Source of the DNA: Daphnia pulex
Taxonomy: Eukaryota > Arthropoda > Branchiopoda > Diplostraca > Daphniidae
Direction of reading: 5' to 3'
DNA: 64,000 nt
Assembly: GCF_021134715.1 (NCBI RefSeq)
Contig: NC_060021.1
Span: 10,696,501-10,760,500 of the forward strand
The translations under genes were made by a program, and so were the position numbers. Below are positions 18,261-61,115 of the stretch, piece by piece; position 1 is the first letter of the stretch, and each line of letters opens with the position of its first letter. The notes beneath the pieces are model-generated. The model had not been told where the DNA came from. It saw nothing but the letters and a program-made list of their open reading frames with translations, and searched no databases.

Positions 18261-20852
18261 TCAATCCATCGCTTTCCTTTTTACTCCATGCTCCGGGAAA
18301 GGTTGAGTTGAATCTCCTCCATCAATTCCAGACGAATCGCTGGAATCAGAGGATGAGTCAGAATCGGACTCTACCTCTTCGTCTGGGTCATAGAAGAGTT
18401 CAGCACCAGGAAACAGGTATCGACCAGGTTGGACGGTGAGATAAGTGTTTTCTGAATTTTATGCAAGGAAATGCATATAGATGACATAGACAACAACCGA
18501 ACAAAAATAAATTACCTGGGAGTTGATCGGCAAGATTCACTTTGATTCGCGGCTCCCACCATCCGGTCATGTCATGAGTAACTGGTTCAACATCACCAGA
18601 CTCGGCTGATTCCATTTCTAAGCTTCCTGTAGACATCCCACTGTCCCGGCGTAAAGGATCGTCTTGATCTCTTTTGGGGAAAATGGGTGCAGGTACGGCG
18701 ACAGAAGGAGTGGGGCGTGGTGGTAGGCGACTGATCTCTGTTAGAGGTTCGCGGTAACAAATGTCATCTTTCCATTGTGTACCCAGTCTGATTGTTACAA
18801 GAAGATTGATGAGACAACAAATTTGGCTGATGAAAATTACTGTATACTAACAAATGACACAGTTGGTTGACGATAATATCGCAGTCCCCAAGCAGTTCAA
18901 CATCAAAGACCATGTGGCGGAGAGGTTCGCGATTGATAAGAATTTGCGGAACATGATTCGGTAGGGCGCCTATTTGAATCAAGAGAAACTTATTGCATAT
19001 GAACTTTAAGGTTACAAGATGACATTTAAAATAACTTACATGGGATGAGTGCGACAGGGCGGACTTTGAGCGATGACCCAATCACGATTATCAGGTCACA
19101 TTCTTCTTTATCGAGTACCATAGCGCGGTGAAATTCGTCTGGCATTCCTTCTCCAAAGAAAACAATGTCAGGCTTCATGATCGGCTGGGCCGATAATGCC
19201 ACCGACGACGATGTACTGGCCTCGTCTTCATTTTTCGACACATCCGAGCATTTCGGACAAAGTGGAATGCGTTGTTCCATTATGTCTTTTTCTATCTCGT
19301 TCGAGGGGACGCGATGTTGGCAGCGCAGGCAAGTGGCAGTAGCAAACGAGCCATGACATTGGATAACCCTTTCGATATCTGCTTGTTGTTCTAGTGTATC
19401 TATGTTTTGCGTGTAGTTGCGCAAAAGCTTGTTTTGTTTCTCTAGCAAACGAATGAACCTAAACAAAATATCGTTTCATTAGCGAAATTTCAAAATTGTC
19501 AAGAGAATTTGTTTACTTGTGGCATTTAGAAGGTGTAAACTGTCCTGGCCAAAGGTCTCGGGCGAATTTAAAGAACGGTCGGGGATCTTTTCGGAAGTAA
19601 TGGATATCAAACATAGCTTGAGGATCGGGCAAGTCAGGGAAGTCGACGGCTAAGCGAGCGTAAATTCCATCACGGCTACGAAAGTCGGGAATACCACAGG
19701 AAACAGAAACCTAAACAAAATTTGTTCAAATATAATGAGGTAAATTATTTTATAAAAAAAAAAAAAAAAATTACCCCTGCTCCTGTAAGAACTAGAATCT
19801 TTTTACAGCTACGGAGTAATCTGACGGCATCGGATATTGCATTTATGTGGCGTAAACGTTCCCGCCTTGGAGGTTCACTGACAATATTCACGATTATCTG
19901 TTTTATTCAATAATTATGATTAGTTGCCTTGACAATGCTACAAATTTATAATTTTACCTTCCAAAGGGTGACATCGTCAAGATGGGTGGGGATTTGAGCA
20001 TCATTTGGTACCAACTCATTCAGGATGGTTCGAGGATTGGTACCAAGAAGCATCTGTTGTTGCACCCAAGACATCGTCCCTGATGATGGCTCCCAGTCAT
20101 GATTGCTCAAGTCACTCAACCCACTTATGTCTGAAACATCACTATCTGAGGAGGTATCATCATCTTTCTCCAAATTGCCCATTGAATCATCAGCATCTTG
20201 AATGGCTGGCAAAGCATAGCTACAAATAAATAAATAATAAAGTTAGACCATATGTTTGTACACAATAAAAAGAAGACATTAGTCCACATTACCTGGTAGA
20301 TGGTAAATCATTAGTGAGATTTTCATCCTCGCTGCTGGCTAAAGACGTTAACTCGCTGAAGCCTGAATCCCCAGCGTTGAACATTTCACAGCTTCCTAGT
20401 TGTCCTGCATCATTTGCTGAAATTTAAAAAAAAAAAAAAAATATTTCAAGTAAGCTCACAATGGATCAACTCTACAGCCATCAAGAAATTTCAACTCAAG
20501 AAACCAAAACAGTATTTGACAAGTGTCATCACACTGTTATGACATTCAAACATGCCGCCCCAAAATTTTGGCAACGCAGCAATCGACCAAAAAGAAGGGC
20601 GTCTCCCCTCCCCCCCCCCCATCCGCCAATGGCCGCACTAACGAAGCAAAAGGCCATTTACCTCAAAACCGAATGCAATCTTTTGCTAACAATTTTGATT
20701 AGGTTCACAAGTACATTAAATGAATGAAATCGATCAAACGGGTACTTACAAAGCTGTTGGCCCTCAATAAAGGACTGTGAGATGTCAATCGGCAGCAAAG
20801 TTCTGCTTCGTTTTACGGGACTGTGAAAGTTCTCGCCTTGTTCGTCGGCCAT
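18261..20852 (-). CDS. SIRT1: NAD-dependent deacetylase SIRT1 (Sir2)
   Basis: Minus-strand gene of eight or more exons; the first is 20852-20750 (MADEQGENFHSPVKRSR...). The product is about 600 residues, with an acidic disordered N-terminus, a class I sirtuin core and a Ser/Asp-rich tail. Core motifs in order: VLTGAGVSVSCGIPDFRS (NAD binding), YTQNIDTLE, catalytic His in VIQCHGSF (about residue 304), zinc ligands CLRC and CPKC, PDIVFFGE, IVIGSSLKVRPVA and ILINREPL. The C-terminus contains NTYLTVQPGRYLFPGAE, resembling the SIRT1-specific tail segment that packs against the core. SIRT1 removes acetyl groups from histones, FOXO, p53 and others in response to NAD. The stop is at 18261-18263. It is head to head with the GPCR gene (850 bp apart). 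Small exon-boundary errors in the last third are possible. Confidence 0.95.
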
Positions 20853-21703
20853 TGCTTCGTCTTCCGTCGATCGTGGGGTAGAGGGCGCTTCTTCTTCTTC
20901 ACAAATTTCGGGCCGCCAGGTGGCAGGTCAGCGTTGCCAGTATGAATCGAATTCGTCCCGAAACCGGAAGAAAATATGCGCAAGGACATGTATACATGAA
21001 ATAGGAAGGGAATTAATTCAAGGCCTTTCCTTGTCGAGCTTTTATATCAACCTTAGTCCACTTTCCGCACGTTGCGGTTCAGATAAGGCATTGTGATTTT
21101 CGCATAAGGAGGAAAGCTGCTGATTATAATTTTTTTTTTAATAGGAGGTTTATCAGAAATGCAGTATCACCAAATTAAACTGAGAAAAAAATTAGTTCAA
21201 GATGTACTAAACATCACGAATGAGGTTACGCGATATCGGGAAAATAATTCACGTATGGCATTTGTACTAGAGAAGCGACCCCGAGGTTTGACTGACTTAT
21301 AATATTCGTGGACCATAAAACCAAATCGCATAGGGGTGAGCCGGCCCGCGGTGCGTTATACCCCCAAAAGTTGTAAAACATGGTCTAGCGATTTGACGAA
21401 CTTAATTAAATCTGATAGGCATAGCACACGGGGCCGCCCGATATGGCCGCTCTTGTTTGAAAGCGTGCGTCACAACAATTGCGCTGAGTGTGTGTGAGGA
21501 TTATTAGTGCTGCGGGATCCGGTAAGTACTTGACTCCAGTCGAGAACGATCAGGCTTGATAAACAACAGCAGAGCTCAGTTGCTGGATTTACCTTCCGAC
21601 AAGCAAGGAATTACTACTTTTTTCAATGTAAGTGAATTCATTGTTTTCCCACACGTAATAACCGAACTCAAGTCGTTCGTGCGAATTTCAGACTTTCACA
21701 GGA
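20853..21703. promoter_or_regulatory. Shared upstream region of SIRT1 (-) and GPCR (+)
   Basis: 850 bp between divergent start codons. Relatively GC-rich patches lie near 20870-20960 and 21330-21350. The GPCR probably has a 5' UTR exon here, since GGATCCGGTAAGTACTTG near 21517 has a strong donor sequence. No coding gene was seen. Confidence 0.5.
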
Positions 21704-23054
21704 ATGGATTTTTCAAACGTCAACTTCCCATTTCCTTTGTGGATTGTCCGTCCCACCTGGGAGTGCGCCTTGAAAATCGGATTCTTCGTTCCTGTCATTA
21801 TCATCAGTCTGCTTGGAAACGGTTTGGTGGTTTACCTCATGGCCACCAATCGATTTTTGCGCACTTCCATCAACATCTTCATTTGGAATTTGGCCATCGC
21901 CGATCTTTTAACTATCCTACTCATCCCGTGGATAATTTTAATCATCGATCTCTACCAGATGTTCATTCTCGGAGAGGTTTCAAAACCAGTCAGTTTTATT
22001 ATCAAATAATTATAATTTCCATTACATTTTTGGGAAGGTTATTTGTCGAACCGAGGGATTTTTAAGAGGTAATTCAAAGCTTCATTTTAAAAAAAAAACT
22101 GGCAAGTAATTCATATATTTCAAATCAAAAGTGATGCTGATGTTGGTGGACGTCTTCAGCTTGCTGGCCGTAAGCTTTGATCGTTTCTTTGCCATCGCAT
22201 TTCCATTCCGCCCGCGGATGGGCCAATCGGCAGCCTACATTATTTGCGGAGTCATCTGGATCCTTTCAGCGGCCATCGCCTCTCCACTCATCGCAGCCCG
22301 CGTCTATAAAGTACGACCAAGAAGCATTTTAAATTGATCAGAATTATTTAGGGTGTTATATCATCTGCCGCCGCCAATTTGACTCAACACACAGGAACGA
22401 CAATGGAAGGATATATTGGAGTCCTGGTGCATCGACAACACTTCCTTCTCTTTCGTGTACTACATCTCCCTCGACGCTATTCTCGTCTGGTTTCCCCTCA
22501 TCGTCATGACTGTTCTATTCATTTTCATCTTCATTATTGTATGTAATCAGCTTCTTTTACATCCTCTTGATTGGTTAAAACGGCAGCAGGTTTCAAATAC
22601 GTTTACAGATGAAATCGCGGACTTCGACCTGCTCTGCCATTCAATTGAAGCAGTTGGCCCAGCGTCAGAAAATCATTCGGATGCTTTTCTTCATTCTGAT
22701 TGGCTTCTTCATCTGCTACCTGCCTTTCACCATTTCCATCATCGTACGAAATAAAATCGTCCTGGGCAACAGCATCAATAGCGTGAGCATTGACTTTTGA
22801 TTATTCACGGAAAAAATGGCAATTGATTGAACATTTCAATAAAACAGATCCCAGATTGGTTGCGCTCCTTGTTGTACACGACGCGCTATGTCATGTGTGT
22901 AAACACAGCCATCAATCCCATCATCTACGGATTCTGCAACGATAACTTCAAGAAAGCGGCCGCCAAACAATTCCCGTCGCTCAAATGGGGCGTCACTCCG
23001 GTGGCCGCCACCATTTCCGCTGCATCAAACACAGGACGAGTCAATTCGGATTAA
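21704..23054 (+). CDS. Rhodopsin-like (class A) peptide-type GPCR, orphan
   Basis: Six exons (21704-21976, 22038-22068, 22132-22310, 22395-22538, 22609-22782, 22848-23054) sum to 1008 nt and 335 residues. Seven hydrophobic segments are visible. TM1 has GNGLVVY, TM2 LAIADLLTI and TM3 ends SFDRFFAIAFPF, where DRF stands for the usual DRY. TM6 has FFICYLPFT and TM7 NTAINPIIYG (NPxxY). Cys in VICRTEG and ESWCIDN would form the conserved TM3-ECL2 disulphide. A 31-nt micro-exon (22038-22068) encodes the residues around the first of these Cys. The motif set suggests a neuropeptide receptor, but I cannot name the ligand family. There is no signal peptide, as is common in the class. Confidence 0.85.
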
Positions 23055-23715
23055 ATCAAATTGAATTACCTTTCGCGTGTAGATTGAGTTGTAGCCCATC
23101 TAAAACAAAACAAAAAAATATTCTTGAAACAATAATTTAGTGAAACACATTGGAACGTTGACATTTGTGACTTTATCTAACGGCAATCACGTTAGATCTC
23201 TATTTGATTCAATGACGACATTCCATGAAACAAAATGTGCAGTGGAACAGAAATCATATTATATATTATTATTATGGAATCAATGAACAAAATACACGAG
23301 TCTTGAATAAGTGCAGTCATGTATCATTGAAAGAAACTTTTATTTTTTTTTTAATTTATTGATTATTATTTTTTTTTTTTTTGGTATTAGCCTTCGGTGT
23401 CTTTTGGACTTATTTATACACTTTTCTTTTTTTTTTTTTAATTCTTCTTTACCATTTTCACCGCAAACATCCGGTGACAAGGTGAGGCGTCGTTGTCGCC
23501 GTCGATTGAAGAAAAAAAAAAAGGAACGTCGTCGATCAAAAAGAATTTACTGTATACATTTCTAAGAGCGGGCAAATTGACTGGTATTTTACGAAACTTT
23601 TTTCTGTCCCCCCCCCCCCTTGTGTTTCTTTTTTTTTTTTTTCTCTTTTTAACAATTTTATGTCCTCAGACTTCCTTGGTTTCGTCTAGTAATCGACGGT
23701 TGCGGAGTAGTGAAT
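23055..23715. other. Convergent 3' region between GPCR and calpain
   Basis: Holds both 3' UTRs. T-rich homopolymer runs occur at about 23341-23382, 23428-23440 and 23630-23642, and a C-run at about 23610-23619. No gene was seen. Confidence 0.6.
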
Positions 23716-26700
23716 TCAGGAGTAAATTGTCATCAAAATCATCTGCGAGTCGAAGACGAAAATAATTTAAATTATTGTCGGTCCCCTGGAACGTAACAGC
23801 AATTTGTTGTCATTACCTCTTCCAACGACAGGGGACTGCCTTTCATTTTCGAGTCAATGCTGAGATATCGCTCTGCGGGAGGTATTCAATGGAAGAATTA
23901 ATTGATGTCTCGATAAAAATAGCAAATCTAAATGGAGCATATTCAACTTTTTTTAAAGCTAAAGGGCATCGTTGTACCCAAAATCCGGACGGGAAAAACA
24001 AATCAAACTGCCACTATTTACCGTGGGCCAAATGAAGGCGGACGAGTGCCATGACGAAAGCTTCGGCTGTGAGAACTCGGTTTTTGGCGAAGCGCAAGAC
24101 CAAACATTCGAGCACTTTGTTACTGACGGTCAATCCAGATTCCCACAGGATGGGTCTCAAATTGTAACTACTCGTCTTGCCACCGTGGGCTCGGTCGTAC
24201 TTGCCAAAGGCCACCTGGCAAAAACAAACAAACAATGTCAGCCGATAATTGGAGAAAATGATTCCAGTCAGACTAGCGCTTAAGACTTGGTTTCAAATGT
24301 TGTTACGTACCCGCCAAAAGTGTAGGGTGTGCAAGAGGGCGGGGACGTCAATCAGATTAATCTTGCCACTAATGTTGAAATCCCTGAGCATGATGAGACT
24401 TTTGCAAAGCTCCAGACTGGGCGGCTTCTCCGAGCCCATGAGTGAATTGAAACAGGGGACGTTGGCGCAGCATCCAGACGGACTGACGTTGCTGTTGACG
24501 CTGACGGGTCGGGCGAGATCGGCGCTGTTGGCCGTCGATCGAAAACAATTGTAATTTTTCAGGATTTTCATCAAAATGCCGGCGTCAATTTCCGTCGGAT
24601 ATTTGATGGCCAATTTGCTGAAATTACTCCGAACTTCCGGCTACAAAATACAAAAAAAAAAACACAGCGTGAATATTTAAAAATAAGTTTACTCCGTAAT
24701 GAAATCCAATTCCAATTCGTACGTGTTTGAAACCATCTTCAAATCCTTCTGCAGCGACGTTCCTAAAGATCATGTTGTCTTCGTTGACTTCCCTAAAAAC
24801 AAAAAATGTGAATTTTAAAAATGGCCCCATTAACATTATCAAATAAGAATTTAAACATGATTAAGTTAAACATTTACCAAATGTTGCTGTGCTCGTCGGT
24901 GAAGATGCGCAAGAGGAATTTGCCCTCGCAGTGGGCGATGCCGGTTTGCGGGACGACCACGTAGTCTCCCGGCGGCAGCGTGAAGAACGTCACCACTTCC
25001 CTGGCCACTGAGTGATTGGTTACATCCAGCGGTTTCTGGGTTCAAGAAGGAAGTCGGAGCAACCAAAAAAAACAGAAAAAAAATAAACAAACAAAAGTAT
25101 ATAAAAGTCAATGACTCGGACAAACACGTGCACTTGGCCAAGACAAACCAGACGGACCGGTTTCACCGCGAAACACAAAAACTACAGTTAGCCATTTCCA
25201 CCGAAAAAATAGAGTCGTAAACCACAATACCAAATAGGAAATAACGTCCTGTTATCAAGTCGAACAAGTAAATCAATCTAACCAAACAACAACAACAACA
25301 ACCAGGGGGCAGAAAAATAAATGGGTTCAACTTCTTTAGGGACGGAATGACAAGTTGACTAGAATGTGAACATCTCGTCCAGCGGGAGTGACACGGAATT
25401 TCAAACGAGAATAAAAGGAAAACACCCAGACCCACCCATATCGAGACCCCCAGAAAACAGTCACTGAAATGGGCCCCATTGTTGTTGTCGCCGTCGACCA
25501 AACATGGCGTGAGCGGCTCATTTGCATGCCGACCGCACCGCGTATTCACGTCGATTCAACGGTGACTTATAGCGGGAGCAACTTGTCAGATACCTGACGC
25601 TCAGTAGTGTGTGATGTGAGTAATAGCTACGAATGTGGAATGCAAATGATTATTACGTGCTCGGCGACAAAGTGAGCGGTGAGCCGGTTGACGTTGGGTG
25701 GCACTTCGTAGACGGCGAAACCGATGGCGTGCATCGAGCGGTTGAGAGTCGAGCCGGAGCTCGAGCCGCCGCCGCCACCGCCACTAGCGCATCCGCCGGC
25801 GCTGTTTTTCTTTTGTTTCCCGAGAAGGAGAAGTCCGTCACGGGTCTCGTAGTGCTGCGTCACCGACACGACGACGTGGCACTTGGAGCTGGTGGCCGCC
25901 GTCCTGGGGATCTGGACGAAGAACTGCGGGTTCATGGCCGTCGTCTCTGTCGAATTTCATCAAACATCGTAAAAGGCAATGCAACAACAACAACAAGAAG
26001 AAGAGGAAAATCAGAAAAATCAGGCGGATGGCAATATGCGATAAGTAATATCTTTCCCGATCGAAAATATAGAAACGACGTCTAAAAAAGTAAAAGAAGA
26101 AGGCGTGCTGTAACTCTCTGCAACTATTTTTGTTTTCTTTCTGGTATTAGATCCTATAAAGTCCCAAACTAGCGGCTCCTTCACCAGCCATCCGTCGGCT
26201 GTATATAATCATATAATCCCCCGGCCCCCTCCCTCTTCCACAGATATGACATACCCAAGTGATGTGGGCCTCCTCCGGCGTTGTATCCGGCTCGCCATCT
26301 TCGTCGAGCCAAAACGGCTCGCCAAGGTTTCTTAGAGTGCAGCGCTGGCTCGTTCATCCAATCATCCGGGCCGATGTGAACCAAGTCCAAATGTGTAAAT
26401 TGCTTGGAAAAGTCCTCGAAAGACATCCTGTGGCAAACAAAAACAATCCATCAAGGACAAAAGATCAACATTAACTTTATTTTTGATTGGAGGCGTACCA
26501 GAATTCTCCCTCGTTGCGGACGCGGACCGACAGGAGCTCCTTGTCGCGCTCCGAGAGCGAGTCCCACTCCCAGGAGCGCTCCGACCAGGGTCCGCTCCAC
26601 TCTCCGCGACCCCAAGGGTTCCTGAGTCGGACGAGCGGCACTTCGCCGCGGTTGCTGCTCCTGACGCGGGCCAGTCCCGTCACGCTGTAGGCCGTCTGCG

Positions 26701-29700
26701 ACATGAGACCGTTGCGTAGACGCAGAGCCCGCGGCTGCTTGCCACCGCCACCCGACGACGACGACGTCTCCTTCTCGCCAAAGCTGATGCTGGCGATGAG
26801 GAGCGTCGAGCGCGGGACGGCGCTGTTCAACACCTGGTACGTCAGGAACTTGTCCTGCTGCGACAGGCAAAAACTCTGACGGCCGACACGAAATTTAAAA
26901 AAAAAGTCAGTCATTCCAATCCAAACATGGCCGATACACGCAATTTTTGTAACATTCCCAGGTTGTTATGTTTTTATTACCTGGACAATGCCGCCGGTCA
27001 GGTCTTGTAAGGCTTTGGTCGTGAATCCGGCGTGCAAGTTTTCGTACGTCCCGTAAAGTCTAAAAATGAAGAATATCCAAGACGTGAATATTTATGCCGT
27101 CAATCCCGAAAGCAATCAATTGTTAACACATACTTGGCGTAAGCTTTCTCTAGTAGGGCGGCCCAAAACTCTTGCGGATCCGACGAGTGCAGGTAGACTA
27201 GTTTGCCGCGCACAGTGGGCAGCTTGTCGTCGATGACCACTTCGACCCAGTCGCCAAAGTGCCAGAATCGGAACCTGCATTCATTTGATTTTTGTTTTTT
27301 TTTTAATGGGAGAGAGAAAAGGTTATTATCTCGTAATTAAAGATTTCGACAAGCTCCAACTTAAACATTTCGACAAGCTCCGACGGACTGGTCGTCGTTA
27401 TTTATTCGAGAGTCCATTAAAAGATTCGTTTCATCGATTTCAACGTCATAATCATCCGCTTGAAACCCGATAACCATTGGCATCTTCCTTTTTTCTTCGT
27501 TATTTCTTATTTTTCTTTTAATGGACGCATTCAGTGGGCAGTTAAAAAAAGTGAGTTTGAAAAATAAAGCCGCGCGGCTCGTTCGTCATCAATGGCATAC
27601 GTAGACTGGCCGCCTTTTTTTTATTTCCCGACCCAGGGCCGGCCAATCAGTGAAAGAAGAATTCAACAAACGTTTCCGTTTTGGGAGTTGCCCAATAAAA
27701 AAAAAATAAGAAACTGAGAAAAATGTTGGCCCTTTTTCGGGATATTGCGGATGACTCTCAAGTTCAAAAGGGACTGGGGGGAATCTAGTGTAGCGCTGCA
27801 CTGCAGCCAAGGGTCGGCGATTATCTGAGCCCAAACTAGCGCATCTCATTATGCATATAGACTCGTAATCGTAAACCTCGATACCTTTTATATGCCACTA
27901 TAAGTGTACATCTATCTGGTATTTATCTTTTCAATCATAAAAAGAAGAGAATAAAAAGAAACGGGGGGAATGATATGGAAGATTATGCAAGAAAAAGAAG
28001 AAAAAGAAAAATAAGAAATCGCTCGGGACCTGAAGAGACCGCAGTAGTGGAGGTCGAAGGTCTGGTCGGGCGGGACGACTCGATCGAGGAAGCGCGGCGT
28101 TAGTGTCAGGGACGAAATGGCAGCCAGTAACCTGTTGTTATTTCGCCAGGCAAAACACACACACACACACAAAAAGAGAAGATGATTAGATATATAAGAG
28201 TAGCAGCAGCAGCATCATGTTTCTGCCTTCCCATGTACATTCGCTAATCATTTGGCAGTTGGAGGGGGTGAACGACAATCGTGTTAATCGTCGGGGAAAT
28301 GAATGGGTGTGAGTCAAATCGGAAATGTCCGCCAAATAAAGGTCGCCACTTCATTTCTACATGCAGCTAAGTACTAGTTGGGAGTTTGAATACCAAGGGT
28401 CGCCCAATTCGCCTTGCTCGACGTCGAACCGCGACGCTCCGTTGGCAATGAACGTCGGCCGCTGGCAAATATCCTTCAAAAAAGAAATTTTAACAAAAAT
28501 AGAAATGAGACAAAATGAATTTTAAAAAAGTTCAATAATCTCATCATCAACGAGAAAAACAAAAAAAGTCAAGTCGGTGCGGCGGGGAGATTTGAATTCG
28601 TGCCTCCCGCCGAATGAAGCAGCGGTACATATAGAAACACACATACGGTCACGGTCACGGTTTCCAATTAGGTGGAGGCCGGAACGGTGTAACAAGAGTC
28701 GCACGGCTCGGCATTTTTGCGCCAAAAGTTGTAGTGCCACAGAGAGAAACAACTGCGATTTGAAATATAATTGCCATTTCATAAGTCCAAAGATTTCCCA
28801 TGTCTATCTGACGTGAGATGCAATTGTGATATCTTCCCCCCCTCCCAAAAAAAAAAAAAAAAATTCTCCGAGGCCATTTAGAAAAAAAGATGGAACGATC
28901 AAGTTATGCGATGGAAAGGATAGACCGGCAGTTATCACGACCCAGCTCAAGCCCAGCTGATGAAATAATTGAAATAGCCTTAATTCCGCTGCCGTTCTCT
29001 CTCTCTCTCTTTGCTCATTAGTTCACTTCAACGTAACGGAACGTTGTTTCCCCCAATTTTTTTTATTTTTTTTTATTTGCCGGGTCGTCACGAACACACA
29101 GGTAGTAAGGAGAAGAATAAAAATATGCCACTCCCACTCGCCTCCCATCCCAACAATTGTATTTTTTTAAACCGGGAGATTTTGAAAAGAAAGAAAATTT
29201 TTTAAAACTATTTTTATTCTCTTTTTTAAAAAAAAAAGCCCGCGGGTGCGGGATATTCTACCAAACTGCACCGCGCGGCCCCGAAAAAGTTCACGAAGAA
29301 AAATAATAAAAGCTTCTACCGTGGTACACGTTTTACCACACCCAGTTTTTTTTTTTACTATCAGGATGGATGCAACTTATCTTATTATTTCCTTTTAAAT
29401 GTTTTTTTTTCCAGCTAGGATGATGGGTTAGAATAGAAATTGACTTAACACGGGAATTCGATTTGGTTGACTGACTGACCCCCAAAGAAAAATGTTGCGT
29501 CCTCGGTTATCTCTTGTACGTAGAGAGAGCTCTTATCTCATCCATCATTCAGACTTTTTCTTCTTCATTTTCTTTCTATTATTAATCTCAAACTGATTTC
29601 TCCACCACTTCTTTCCCCCTTCTATTCCTTATTTTCGGATAAAAAGAAATAATTTATCGAAATGTACATTTTTTTTCGAATGAAAATAATCTCAAAAAAT

Positions 29701-32109
29701 GTGTTACGTGTGGTCTGAGCCAAGTGATGGGTCCTCCCAAGTTGGCCGGCTTCTTGTTGGTGTAGAGCGATCGGGCCGTGGTGGGGAAGTCGGGATCGTC
29801 GAAGAGCAATCCCCTGTCACGGCAGACCCGTTTCAGCTGGTGGTAGTTGGACGGTAGGTGCCGGGCGCCTCCAACGCTCGTACCACCCGCTCCGCCGCTG
29901 GCCAGACCTCCTCGTCCTTGGTCCTTGGTCGTCTTTTCATTCGTCCAGTACCTTTTTTTTTTTAAAAAAAAAGGGAAAGCCATTCAACAATTATTTCAGC
30001 CTCTTTTTTTGTTGTTGTTACTCTAAAGGTATGTTGTTGTTATTTCTTTCAAAGGGGGGATGAATGACCATCAAAGTCAAAGCAATCAACAATTTAGCCT
30101 GACGTTTGGCGTGCTAACAACCGGGTTGAGAGGTGGAAACCTTGGTACCAATGGATGCTCAAGAGAAGGTCAATTCGAAATTTCATTAATCTTTTCGGAT
30201 GTTATTTTTTCTTTCTTTATTTTACGATTTTTTCAATCTGGAAAGGAATGTTTTTTTTCTTTTTTTTTCAGGTTGTGCGCCCCACAGGTGTACAACAGAA
30301 TGAATGGGCCATGTTCTTACCGCTCGCACACGAAGTTTACTACATACAACTTTTTTGTTTTTCTTTGACCAAGGGATGTTTATGTACTGGACGTGTGTAC
30401 GTTGTAAAAAAAAAATACTCTGCTTTTAGTTTCTCTCTCTTCTTAACTCTTACAAGAATATAATGAATAGCAAAAATAAAAAGACGCAAAGTCCGTCCAC
30501 CTTTTTTCGAGTTTCAGAATTTATTCCCCGAGAATAAGAGAAACCCCCGTTGAAAAAAAGAAATGTCCATTTCCACTTTATTATTGTTATTATTAGCTGA
30601 GACTGCATCTCAAAAACTACCGGCATGCAGGCGTCTAGCTCCGCAAAACGGGACATTTGCGGGACCAGCCAGTTATGGTGTGGTATGCAAGTCGACGGGC
30701 TAGACGTATGCGCGTGCATTTATCACACTTCTCATTTTTTAAAACCTCTATTTCCTTTTCTTTATTTTTTTTTAAAAAAGGTTTAAATTCTTTTTTCTTT
30801 TTTTTTTCCCCCAAAAAAGTATTCCGACTCTTAACGGTCGCTCCCGGCGCATCACGAACGGTTGATTGCAGCATGTTCCAATCAACAAGAACGGTACACA
30901 CACACACGCGTATAAGAGTCTGGGAGAAATAGATAAGGAAAAATAAAAGAAAGGAAATCTTTTTTCGGGTGAATGCAACAGCCCTGCGGTAGGGTCATTC
31001 GAAATCAGATGATTAAAAAAAGCCAACTCGGATGAAGCGCAGCAGTGGCGGGTCAAACTTCACGCAGGATCAACGTGATTGGGAAAAGGCAAGCAGGTGG
31101 AAGAGAAGGAACAAGGAGCTATACTATCACTACTGTTGAGTCTCTCAGCTCAAACCTGTTCATAATTTGTTGTACGTATCGATCGATTGTGTTGTCATCT
31201 ATTAAATGCATCGGGATAAACGACTTTCCTTTTTCCTTTTTTCCTCGTCAAGGATCAAGGATGGGCCCAGGTGTTTTCCCTTCGTCTGCCAAATGTTCAA
31301 AATGGAAGTGCTGGCACCTGGGATATGCCTGGCGCTAGAATGACGGGACCCTGTCGAATCCGCCCGCATCAAAGTTGTTGTCAAAAATGATTGCGGCGTT
31401 AAATGTTTTAGCGAGAAATTGGAGGTGAAAGTCCGACGAACGGCAACAATAAAACACAGTTGTTGGACTGGGGGAATTTTTCACCGGCCGGGAAAAAAAA
31501 TGTGAAGTGAACGACACCCACAGACATAGACACCGCCGCCCTACCACATAAAAAAAGTTCCTCACCATCTCAACACACACACACCGCCAATTACAAGACT
31601 ATTGTTTACTATTTCTTAACATTCACGCCGAAACACGGGAGAATGTGAAGAATCAAATAGGAAGGAAGGAATAATAAGGACATTAAAGAAGAAGAAGAAT
31701 TTATTCTTCCCAATGATGGAACATATGGTGGGATTGTTGTTGGGTAGGGTCATCCGAAAAGGTCACCCTGTTAACGAACCTTCTTCTTTTCTCTTACTCG
31801 TCAGTTTTTTGAAAATGTTCAAAAATGGGGGGAGACTCACCGGGATAACGTCGACTGTTTGTCTTCACGCGGAGGCGGCCATCCGTTGTTTGCCCACTGC
31901 GGTGGCGGCGGAGGTGCTGGCTGGTGCTGCTGTCGATGAACCGCTCCATCTGCTACACATTGGGAAAAAGGGAAAAAACAAAAATTCTTATTTGAGACCA
32001 CCAACAATAATATTACGGCGACAAGAAGAAGAAGAATTGGGATAAAACGTGTATAAGGAAAGATGACTCGACACCGTTCCCTCCTTTGCCGATGCCAATC
32101 ACTTGGCAC
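23716..32109 (-). CDS. Calpain-family pseudoprotease (CalpC-like), catalytic Cys and His lost
   Basis: Minus-strand gene with about 15 exons. Order of parts: proline-rich N-terminus (exon ending 31841); [10 protein letters not shown] exon (29951-29708); [12 protein letters not shown] exon (28473-28394); [10 protein letters not shown] exon (28131-28030); [12 protein letters not shown] exon (from 27274); [13 protein letters not shown]; large protease-core exon (about 26884-26500); C2-like domain III (about 26430-24890); penta-EF-hand domain, ending in exons 23872-23817 and 23742-23716 ([12 protein letters not shown]). The active-site loop reads LGDPWLLAAI, so the nucleophilic Cys is Pro (codon 28396-28398). 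The His motif reads TAYSVTG instead of HAYSVTG (codon 26693-26695). Asn is kept in RNPWG (26618-26620). It cannot be a Cys protease. Drosophila CalpC is a known inactive relative. The start is uncertain: the frame stays open to ATG 32109, adding a hydrophobic segment, but an acceptor near 31960 may instead join an upstream exon. Confidence 0.88.
28154..28170. repeat. (AC)n microsatellite in calpain intron
   Basis: Uninterrupted AC dinucleotide run of about 17 bp just upstream of the LLAAI exon (minus strand), inside the intron. Confidence 0.9.
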
Positions 32110-32472
32110 CAGAGTGTTAACTTCTTGATTCGACTGGTCGTCGGGAGCTAGTCAAGTCAACAAAAAAGGCGCGTGTCTTGGCACAATTTGAACCCCCACC
32201 AAATATTGGAAGAACAACCGAAATGTGGTTATATACCGTACCATTTAAAATAAAATAGAAAACTCGTAGCTGGCAAGAAATACAAAAGAGAGAGAAAAGA
32301 ACGGGGAATGACTCGGTGAGAAAAAGATCGCGGGAGGAATGCGCCATCCAGCCCTGAATCTTTCTACCCGTTCCCTGAATCAACCAAGGGCCTCTCAATG
32401 TAAAAACGTGTCGTCTGATAATTTCGAGATGGTCATCTTCACTATACTCGCCCAGATTAAAAAAGAAAACTG

Positions 32473-32500
32473 AAAAAAAAAAAAAAAAAAAAAAAAAAAC
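32473..32500. repeat. A28 homopolymer
   Basis: Twenty-eight consecutive A residues, the longest homopolymer I noticed in the window. There is no adjacent retroelement-like coding sequence to suggest a polyadenylated insertion tail. Confidence 0.9.
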
Positions 32501-35500
32501 AATTCACGTAACTTTGACGTTTCTCACGAACGAACCACATCTTCTTATTTCGCGGGAAATTGTTGACAACTCTTTTTTTTTTTCCAAAAAGGAAAACCCC
32601 CCTTTCCTTTTTTATTAAAAAAAAAAAAATGATATTTCCTAAACCGGAATGAGCTAAAGTGTTGGGATGAAGAAAAGTGGGGGGGAGCCGCCGCCGGGAG
32701 GATCTAGTCACGCCACGCCGAACACGTCATCCCAAAAAACTACAGACACCAGCATTTTATTTCTTATAAACCACGGCGGAGTGTTGGAATAAGAATAAGA
32801 GAGAGAGAGCTTTTGCCATCCATAAAGCACACACCTCCCTTTTCAAAAGAGAGAGAAGATTTTCCACTCAAAAACTTTTGCGTGAGAGAAGAAGTCGAAG
32901 GACGCACACACACAACCCAAAAACTTGACTCGTTCGCATAGCACCAGCCAGCCAGAGACTATAGTGTCATCCTCTATCATGTTACCCGGAAGCGAAGAAA
33001 TAAAGCCTTTCAAGAAGCACAAAAAGTAATACATTTCCCCTCCGTCTTTCAACCAAGCGAGGAGAATATTACGTGAAGAAGATGGACGAGATGTGAAATG
33101 ACGCTGCGAGTGAAAGTTTTGTCGGTTGCCAAAAGAAAAAAAAGAATAGCAGGAGTAGTTGGGAACGAGCGCCCTTTGACCGTTTCCCGAAGTTGGAGAT
33201 CAAAAGTGAGTTAGTCGCGAGAAAGAAGAGAATGAATAAATATTTAAAGGCGAGCGCCAGTTTCATTCTATTGCCCCTTTCATTTCCTCCTCATTCTTCA
33301 GTTCGAACAATGAAAACAAACGACAAGAAAAGACCTCAAATGACACCCGAACGGCAAAAGAAAATGGAACGAAATAAAACAAGCAGACAATACTCAGCTG
33401 AGACAACTCTCCGCCTGATACATAGTCGTGTATAAAATTTATTTTTCGACTAGGGCCGCACCTTGGGTTGAGCGCTGGGGGGGTCAAGTGCATCAACATG
33501 GTCCGCTTTTGACTTGTATTTATTTATTTATTATTATTTTTTCCCGACTAAAGGCAAGACGGCGGCGGTACAAATCATTTCCATTAATTCCCGTTAAAAT
33601 AAGCTTGGCTAAAATATTCACGTCTTACGTGTGTGTGTGTGCACAATGGAAAGTTGGGGCGCCGTACCGGAGAGAGAGAAGAGAAATCGACGACATTGGC
33701 GCGATTGATCGTTTGTAAATTATCCCTTCGTTTTCTTCTTTTCCTATACGGATCCCACCCAAAAATAAAAGCTAAAAAAAAAGAAAAAGAAACAAATTTT
33801 CTTTTGTTCTATTGTTAGGGTCTTCCTACTCTCTCCTCATTACGATGATGATGATCTTGTTACCAACGGCTCCCCATTATCATTAGGGCCGCCAAATAAC
33901 TCAAACACCGAAGAGATGGATAACATCCAGCTAGAGAGACAATTCAAAAATGGGCCGACGCCCTGACTGGATCTCCGATGGATCCAGTGGGGGGATTTGG
34001 GTTATTTTATTGGCACGATCGTGGCCAAAAATGTTGAACGGCAAATGAGTTTTTCGACCACCACACGACGAGTGGTGTGTGGCGTTTTAAAACAAAAAAA
34101 AGGTGGAAAATGATTTACCGATGGCGGCCGATCTCCACCTGTGCGGCATGGCAGGTCTGATGATGAGGAGTAGGTTAAGGACAAGAAGAAGGTGGAGGCG
34201 TCAGCCGAAAGAGGAGGAGGAGGAGGACGTGGCGAATGACTGGTGGTGGACGACAAGGGTAAGATGATGATGAAGAGACTGTCAGCAGATCTCATGATGA
34301 CGATGTCGGCCGCATCGGAGAGAAGTTCATCCTCTCCGTTTCGTGATGTGGCACTAGGTCAAAACCAAACTCAAACAACCCCCCAAAATGAAAAACCTTC
34401 GCTGCGACTCTTCGTAACGAGCCAACGTAATAATCTCTTTCGCCCAATTCACAACGCACACACAAACACACACACAGAGAAATGGAAGGAACTCAAATGC
34501 AGGGGAGAGGCCTTGACAGTTGGATGTGAGGATAACCCCTTCACTCTCACGATTTTTCACTCTCTCTCTCTTTCGGATGCGGATGATTCGTGATGATGAT
34601 GACGATGATTATATCCACAACCCAAAATAACAGTCGAAGAGAATTCTCTGTAGGGGGAGGAATGGTTCAAAGGTTTTGTGTGAGGTTAAGTTACGAGCAG
34701 CCCGAGAGACACACAACACAACACCAACTCACGTCGACGAACCGACAACGACTGTGTGCCCAGCCAGTCAGAGCGAACCTCTGACTCGTGTAGAAAAGGA
34801 AAGAGAGAGAGAGAGACCTGTTGGGCTCACCACTCCCGGCGGGTTCAGCTATACGTCTATTTTTTCTTCTTTCTTTTAAAAAATAGTCAGAAGAAGAGTT
34901 GAGAAAACGACTATAAAGATGCTCTTTTCTCTGGTGTGTGTGTGTTTGTGTAGAGTGTGTGTGTAGTGTACTGTAAGCCCCTCTGGGCCTCTTCTTCTTC
35001 TTGCAGCTCTTTGGCATGGGCACGATCGAGAGCCAGCAAAACTCGTCAATGGCAGACTCTAGGCACTAAACAATTAGCATAGACTATCTCGGCAGATTAT
35101 TCGACGTTCCTTTCTTTATGACGCAAGATCCTTACTTGGGATTTGCGGGGGGGTTTGAGAGGAAAGACGATAGCCGGGGCCCATCTTGACCAGCAGCAGC
35201 AGCGAGCGCGTCCGCATTCGACGGATAAAATGGCACAAGACACAAAGTGCGTTCAAACCCTCTAAAGCTCACCTCGGATCCATCTTCTCACCTGACATTT
35301 CACGACCGGTTACCCATCAACGCGCTTTTTTTAAATTTCTCCCGACGTGACGTCAGAAATTCACGCTAGATTTTGATTTAAAAAAAAAATCCGCGTGCGC
35401 AACTTGTTCCGCCGCGTTGTACTCTACGGCGATGGTCAGTGAACGAGTCCAGTGAACACAAAACAAAAATGAAACGTCGTCTGACTGGATCAAAAAAGAA

Positions 35501-58678: not shown

Positions 58679-61115
<2,437 letters not shown>

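Follow-up and report, generated by a model that had tools for sequence, protein, structure and literature searches.

The window analyzed here, a 64,000-nt stretch of Daphnia pulex DNA, carries on its minus strand a calpain gene in which the catalytic Cys is replaced by Pro and the catalytic His by Thr, and which we read, at a probability of about 0.85 judged from sequence, as a real, non-proteolytic classical calpain. Coordinates are window positions and residue numbers are those of the predicted window protein unless CAPN1 is stated. The gene extends from 29983 to 23716 and comprises 14 coding exons that encode 783 amino acids, with GT-AG boundaries at all 13 introns; a first-pass annotation made from the letters of the DNA had confined it to 26614..28473, which is far too short. 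The start codon is putative, taken as the first ATG in the open frame, and an extra upstream exon is possible. The CysPc protease domain was identified by PF00648 (Peptidase_C2; 349 bits; E 2.3e-104; profile positions 1-295 of 297; match starting at residue 61) and the C2-like domain III by PF01067 (Calpain_III; 93.5 bits; E 1.7e-26; from residue 393). Beyond these two, a Pfam scan of the protein up to E 0.1 returned no other match, and a scan against NCBIfam returned none.

The substitutions are read directly from the codons. Exon 1 (29708..29983) contains domain I and the beginning of CysPc, from the putative start codon to a GT donor, and exon 2 (28394..28473) ends in GELGDPW, where Pro118 (codon CCT, 28398-28396) occupies the place of the catalytic Cys. 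The intron that follows splits the codon of Trp119 (phase 2), which is completed in exon 3 (28030..28131). Exon 6 (26499..26875) carries both remaining triad positions, with Thr287 (ACG, 26695-26693) in place of the His and Asn312 (AAC, 26620-26618) kept. The oxyanion Gln (the Gln of EQGELGD) is also kept. Spliced alignment given only the letters of human CAPN1 recovered seven protease-domain junctions, among them the 28394/28131 junction on which the Pro reading depends. The substitutions, the retained Asn and the splice proposed in the first-pass annotation all stand. Its replaced catalytic residues mark the window calpain as a predicted non-proteolytic homologue.

The window calpain is a coding gene with no visible breakage, as judged by its reading frame and base composition. 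No in-frame stop occurs in the 783 codons, whereas the shifted frames hold 26 and 16; the stop codons that would mark a dying gene were looked for and are absent. GC content by codon position is 0.548, 0.449 and 0.719 (the last being GC3, the third position), and that of the introns is 0.388. We defined 42 family-invariant protease columns as those shared by CAPN1, rat CAPN2 (its engineered Ser scored as Cys) and three triad-intact calpains of the same genome, C4, C3 and C6. Of these columns 37 are unchanged in the window gene, and the five losses are Cys to Pro, His to Thr, Ala to Ser, Glu to Gln and Glu to Arg. Its residue equals that of C4 at 37 of the 42 invariant columns, against 90 of the 219 remaining ones (p 1.4e-8 by Fisher's test). 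Since invariant columns are slow by definition and C4 helped to pick them, the contrast shows constraint at some point on the branch, which did not necessarily act after inactivation. A search with a 279-residue piece for relatives in prokaryote and virus contig collections gave 35 and 2 pattern matches, respectively, none of which was confirmed.

A C2-family search of the same genome found at least five calpain loci including the window gene, and two further own-genome searches found no additional locus with a protease domain. Models of the other four (C4, C9, C3 and C6) were built by spliced alignment. C4 is a classical calpain with an intact Cys/His/Asn triad and a PEF region, and C3 and C6, also triad-intact, are of the SOL and PalB types, names that represent our reading of the sequences. 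C9 (locus L011, G000 C9:9169282 to about 9173100) is a second dead classical calpain, with an Arg/Ile/Cys triad in which the His position is Ile by MAFFT (an earlier C9 model gave Asn), an oxyanion Gln changed to Pro, and a protease core interrupted by a long Gln/Asn/Ser-rich insert; it keeps 30 of the 42 invariant residues. The genome has thus yielded three classical calpains, of which C4 is triad-intact and the other two, the window gene and C9, are dead. The window gene and C9 cluster with support of 97/97 in a seven-row tree, 90/92 in a five-row tree built on gap-free columns without the three triad positions, and 97/96 under a simpler model. Separately, a PEF-type protein encoded at G000 C2:8102280-8102606 (minus strand) matches the calpain C-terminal part at 26% identity (E 3e-5) and could be PDCD6/sorcin-like or a small subunit.

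The calcium-binding parts of the protein were compared with those of active calpains by alignment. CysPc continues through exon 4 (27134..27274), exon 5 (26981..27059) and exon 6 and ends in exon 7 (26255..26427), in which domain III and the PF01067 match begin. At calcium site 1 (CAPN1 numbers), Gly101, Asp106 and Glu185, the last carried by exon 4, are kept and Val99 is Ala. At calcium site 2, whose acidic residues lie in exon 6, Glu302 and Glu333 are kept, Asp309 and Asp331 are Glu and Met329 is Val, in an alignment with one residue inserted inside its last stretch. Asp331 is counted here as presumably part of site 2. Apart from Asp331, the residue list matches, after an offset of 10, the one given in PMC4631099. 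Both protease-core calcium sites thus look largely kept.

Domain III continues through exon 8 (25657..25946), which has PRTAATSSK in the place of the acidic loop and a Gly/Ser-rich insert, and exon 9 (24878..25035). In hand-chosen stretches covering that loop, the window gene has 0 acidic residues, compared with 8 in C4 and 3 in C9; the domain described as intact in the first-pass annotation is present, with its acidic loop replaced. Exon 10 (24723..24792) encodes a linker towards the PEF region, which occupies exon 11 (24311..24640), exon 12 (24022..24214), exon 13 (23817..23872) and exon 14 (23716..23742; C-terminal ...MTIYS and stop). Pfam EF-hand profiles gave no match to this stretch at E up to 1, HMMER filters discarding most matches above 0.1; the same profiles matched C4 at 1.3e-13 and CAPN1 at 1.4e-11, and C9 weakly at 1.4e-5. 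Residue by residue, a comparison covering EF2 and EF3 showed that the EF2 loop in exon 11 retains D, N, S and D, leaving most ligands, and that the EF3 loop in exon 12 has D-A-G-N at the ligand places, with the ligands lost. Neither the intact EF hands nor the calcium sensing through them that had been proposed is borne out, even though EF2 keeps most of its ligands. The PEF fold itself is recognisable: among solved structures, phmmer with the last 127 residues matched the calpain-3 PEF (1.9e-11), calpain-1 (3.1e-9) and the small subunit (4.8e-6), the small-subunit match extending to the last residue, at the end of exon 14. Any calcium response would, by this comparison, come from the protease core and not from the PEF domain.

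On the history that we favor, inactivation would predate the split of the window gene from C9, with Cys changing to Arg in their common ancestor and Arg to Pro in the window gene. The window protein probably now works by binding. As the likeliest mechanism, it could pair through its C-terminal PEF fold, or compete through its protease-core fold, with the triad-intact classical calpain or with the substrates of that enzyme, and the outcome might be that the active calpain is tuned or that cytoskeletal partners are scaffolded. We put this partner mechanism forward tentatively, by analogy with what is speculated for the calpastatin-like Drosophila CalpC and reported for mammalian CAPN6, and consider it short of an even chance.

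Several observations weigh against this account. Protease-domain identity of the window gene is higher to CAPN1 (43.5%, 156/359) and C4 (41.9%, 156/372) than to C9 (37.7%, 143/379), and the approximately unbiased (AU) test does not firmly exclude that the window gene groups with C4 (p 0.057; grouping of C9 with C4, p 0.047). The counts of shared changes are close (window gene with C9, 7; window gene with C4, 4; C9 with C4, 6), and it is possible that long-branch attraction produced the grouping of the window gene with C9. Unique changes in the window gene exceed those in C4 by 71 to 31 with CAPN1 as outgroup (p 7e-5) and by 79 to 27 with CAPN2 (p 4e-7); with the distant SOL gene as outgroup the counts are 20 and 16, and there is no excess. 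The 2.3-2.9x excess could reflect weakened constraint in the window sequence. Pairing is itself uncertain because the EF-hand profiles fail.

The same excess of unique changes is a point in favor of a decaying gene, in which catalysis was lost, the rest is drifting and there is no present function. The missing EF-hand profile match, the lost acidic loop and the low-complexity Gly/Ser inserts point the same way. Decay is nevertheless unlikely, at something like one chance in eight: the 783 codons run without stop or frameshift, the splice sites are canonical and the codon-position bias is strong, and the 37 retained invariant residues stand in a protease domain that is otherwise well diverged from C4. 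If loss of catalysis predates the C9 split, as we infer, decay would also have had time enough to show. The proposal of the first-pass annotation that the scaffold is selected without proteolysis is upheld in part: it agrees with the open frame, the GC3 and the invariant residues, and is tempered by the unique changes counted with CAPN1 or CAPN2 as outgroup.

Equally improbable in our estimate is that the window protein acts as a calcium-gated decoy, whose core would shift with calcium through the two kept sites and would block or steer the active calpain, in effect replacing calpastatin. On that reading the dead core would have taken over calcium sensing from the EF hands. A passage in PMC3157467 speculates that Drosophila CalpC is a calpastatin equivalent.

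As for how the proline arose, the codon context of C9 is GGC GAC CGT TGG (Arg) and that of the window gene is GGC GAC CCT TGG (Pro), one base apart. The simplest path, as the codons suggest, would be Cys to Arg to Pro, with a one-base step each, and the proline itself was probably fixed by drift after inactivation. In papain-like folds the central helix begins at the nucleophile, a position tolerant of proline. The steps from Cys to Arg and from Arg to Pro fit a loss shared with C9, and no special role for proline is needed; proline at this position, which had been called unusual and taken as a possible pointer to a structural or calcium-sensing role, is less mysterious with a grouped dead paralog whose Arg codon is a single base away.

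A little less probable than the decoy, and in our view doubtful, is that a single event, and not point changes, both removed the catalytic Cys and shifted the neighbouring intron 10 nt across its codon. The break at this site in C4 lies at QGEL|GDCW in phase 1, and the window-gene break lies 10 nt downstream, past the catalytic codon. Two neighbouring introns are displaced in the window gene (28393-28132 by 10 nt and 28029-27275 by 6 nt from the C4 places), three other breaks are identical in the window gene, C4 and C9, and the remaining breaks compared are unshared. If the catalytic residue of human CAPN3 is Cys129, as assumed here, exon 3 of CAPN3 starts at the place of the C4 break. The position of that start comes from the splice-acceptor variant c.380-2A>G named in a part of PMC7674836, hence an exon 3 beginning at c.380. 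Standing against a coupled event, C9 has no intron at the active-site position, its GGC GAC CGT TGG falling within one exon, and its codon is one base away from that of the window gene, so that point changes together with intron loss and regain, or with a slide, suffice. Since C9 lacks a break at the site, loss with regain and sliding are indistinguishable. A shared gtatt at the start of the C4 and window-gene introns was considered as a relic and rejected: of the introns compared, gtatt opens 2 of 9 in C4 and 1 of 13 in the window gene.

An assembly or sequencing error is very improbable. The evidence comes from one assembly, but two separate codons are affected and the frame is correct throughout; a single-base error cannot account for the Pro, because at least two changes are needed from a Cys codon (TGY) to CCT. 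Least probable of all, at about one in a hundred, is an active enzyme in which an alternative exon or a different junction provides the Cys (and the His). Although the gene is known here from DNA alone, enumeration of single introns (GT-AG, GC-AG and AT-AC; donor 40 nt or more into exon 2, acceptor 20 nt or more ahead of 28031, two-intron micro-exons lying outside this scope) gave 0 open readings across exons 2 and 3 that restore Cys, the outcome that the first-pass annotation had raised. No GDCW-, DCW-, CWLL-, HAYS- or HxY-like peptide occurs in any of the three frames on the minus strand of 22001-33000, and the His is lost within one long exon (26875-26499).

Other genes were noted in the window. 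A Sir2-family exon lies at 19026-19475 (minus strand; PF02146, E 3.2e-40), with further exons seen by eye at about 18.3-20.9 kb. Between this sirtuin and the calpain lies an exon of a rhodopsin-type G-protein-coupled receptor at 21662-22009 (plus strand; 7tm_1, E 7.5e-9), with open stretches to about 23054; within this region, the stretch 22383-22754, scanned in one frame, gave no profile match. An open stretch at 59262-60080 (minus strand) matches PTEN_C2 (E 9.8e-17).

One of the closest known architectures is that of the calpain-1 and calpain-2 large subunits (PDB 7x79 and 1df0), with which the window protein shares the order CysPc, domain III and PEF, the core calcium sites and 42-45% identity in the protease core, and from which it differs in Cys to Pro, His to Thr, the lost acidic loop and the unmatched EF-hand profiles. 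It resembles C9 as a dead classical calpain with the context GGC GAC CxT TGG, grouped with it in the tree; the Arg/Ile/Cys triad, the oxyanion change, the Gln/Asn-rich insert and the fewer invariants (30/42) set C9 apart, at 37.7% identity between the two. CAPN6, which we take to be without a PEF region and of TRA-type architecture, differs from the window gene as an independent loss. It is similar in being non-proteolytic with a replaced nucleophile, and passages of PMC3731218 and PMC4631099 on CAPN6/calpamodulin describe, in the former, a Cys to Lys change in humans and a role without proteolysis.

Dead calpains are not rare, and non-peptidases make up 337 of 3795 calpain homologues in a count given in part of PMC4631099. 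The window gene is a candidate member of family C, which it resembles in being an arthropod classical calpain with lost catalytic residues and in grouping with a second dead calpain of the same genome. An Arg at the Cys position of Drosophila CalpC fits badly with what PMC4631099 says and was left out of account. A passage of PMC5650170 (2017) states that the family C calpains of Drosophila and Daphnia are missing catalytic residues and are likely inactive, that molluscan and annelid members keep the triad, and that family C also has Branchiostoma members. Drosophila CalpC is described, in part of PMC4631099, as having the His replaced and Asp for Asn; the window gene, unlike it, keeps the Asn. 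Among the best-ranked open-licence literature, no paper was found on the window gene or on Pro at the calpain nucleophile site.

Dead calpains had thus already been reported from water fleas and flies, and the window gene mostly extends the printed record. It does so as a well-preserved arthropod case in which the catalytic residues are gone and the core calcium sites have stayed. With one triad-intact gene among the three classical calpains that the search found, this small animal, tractable in the laboratory, could be used to probe the roles of dead calpains.

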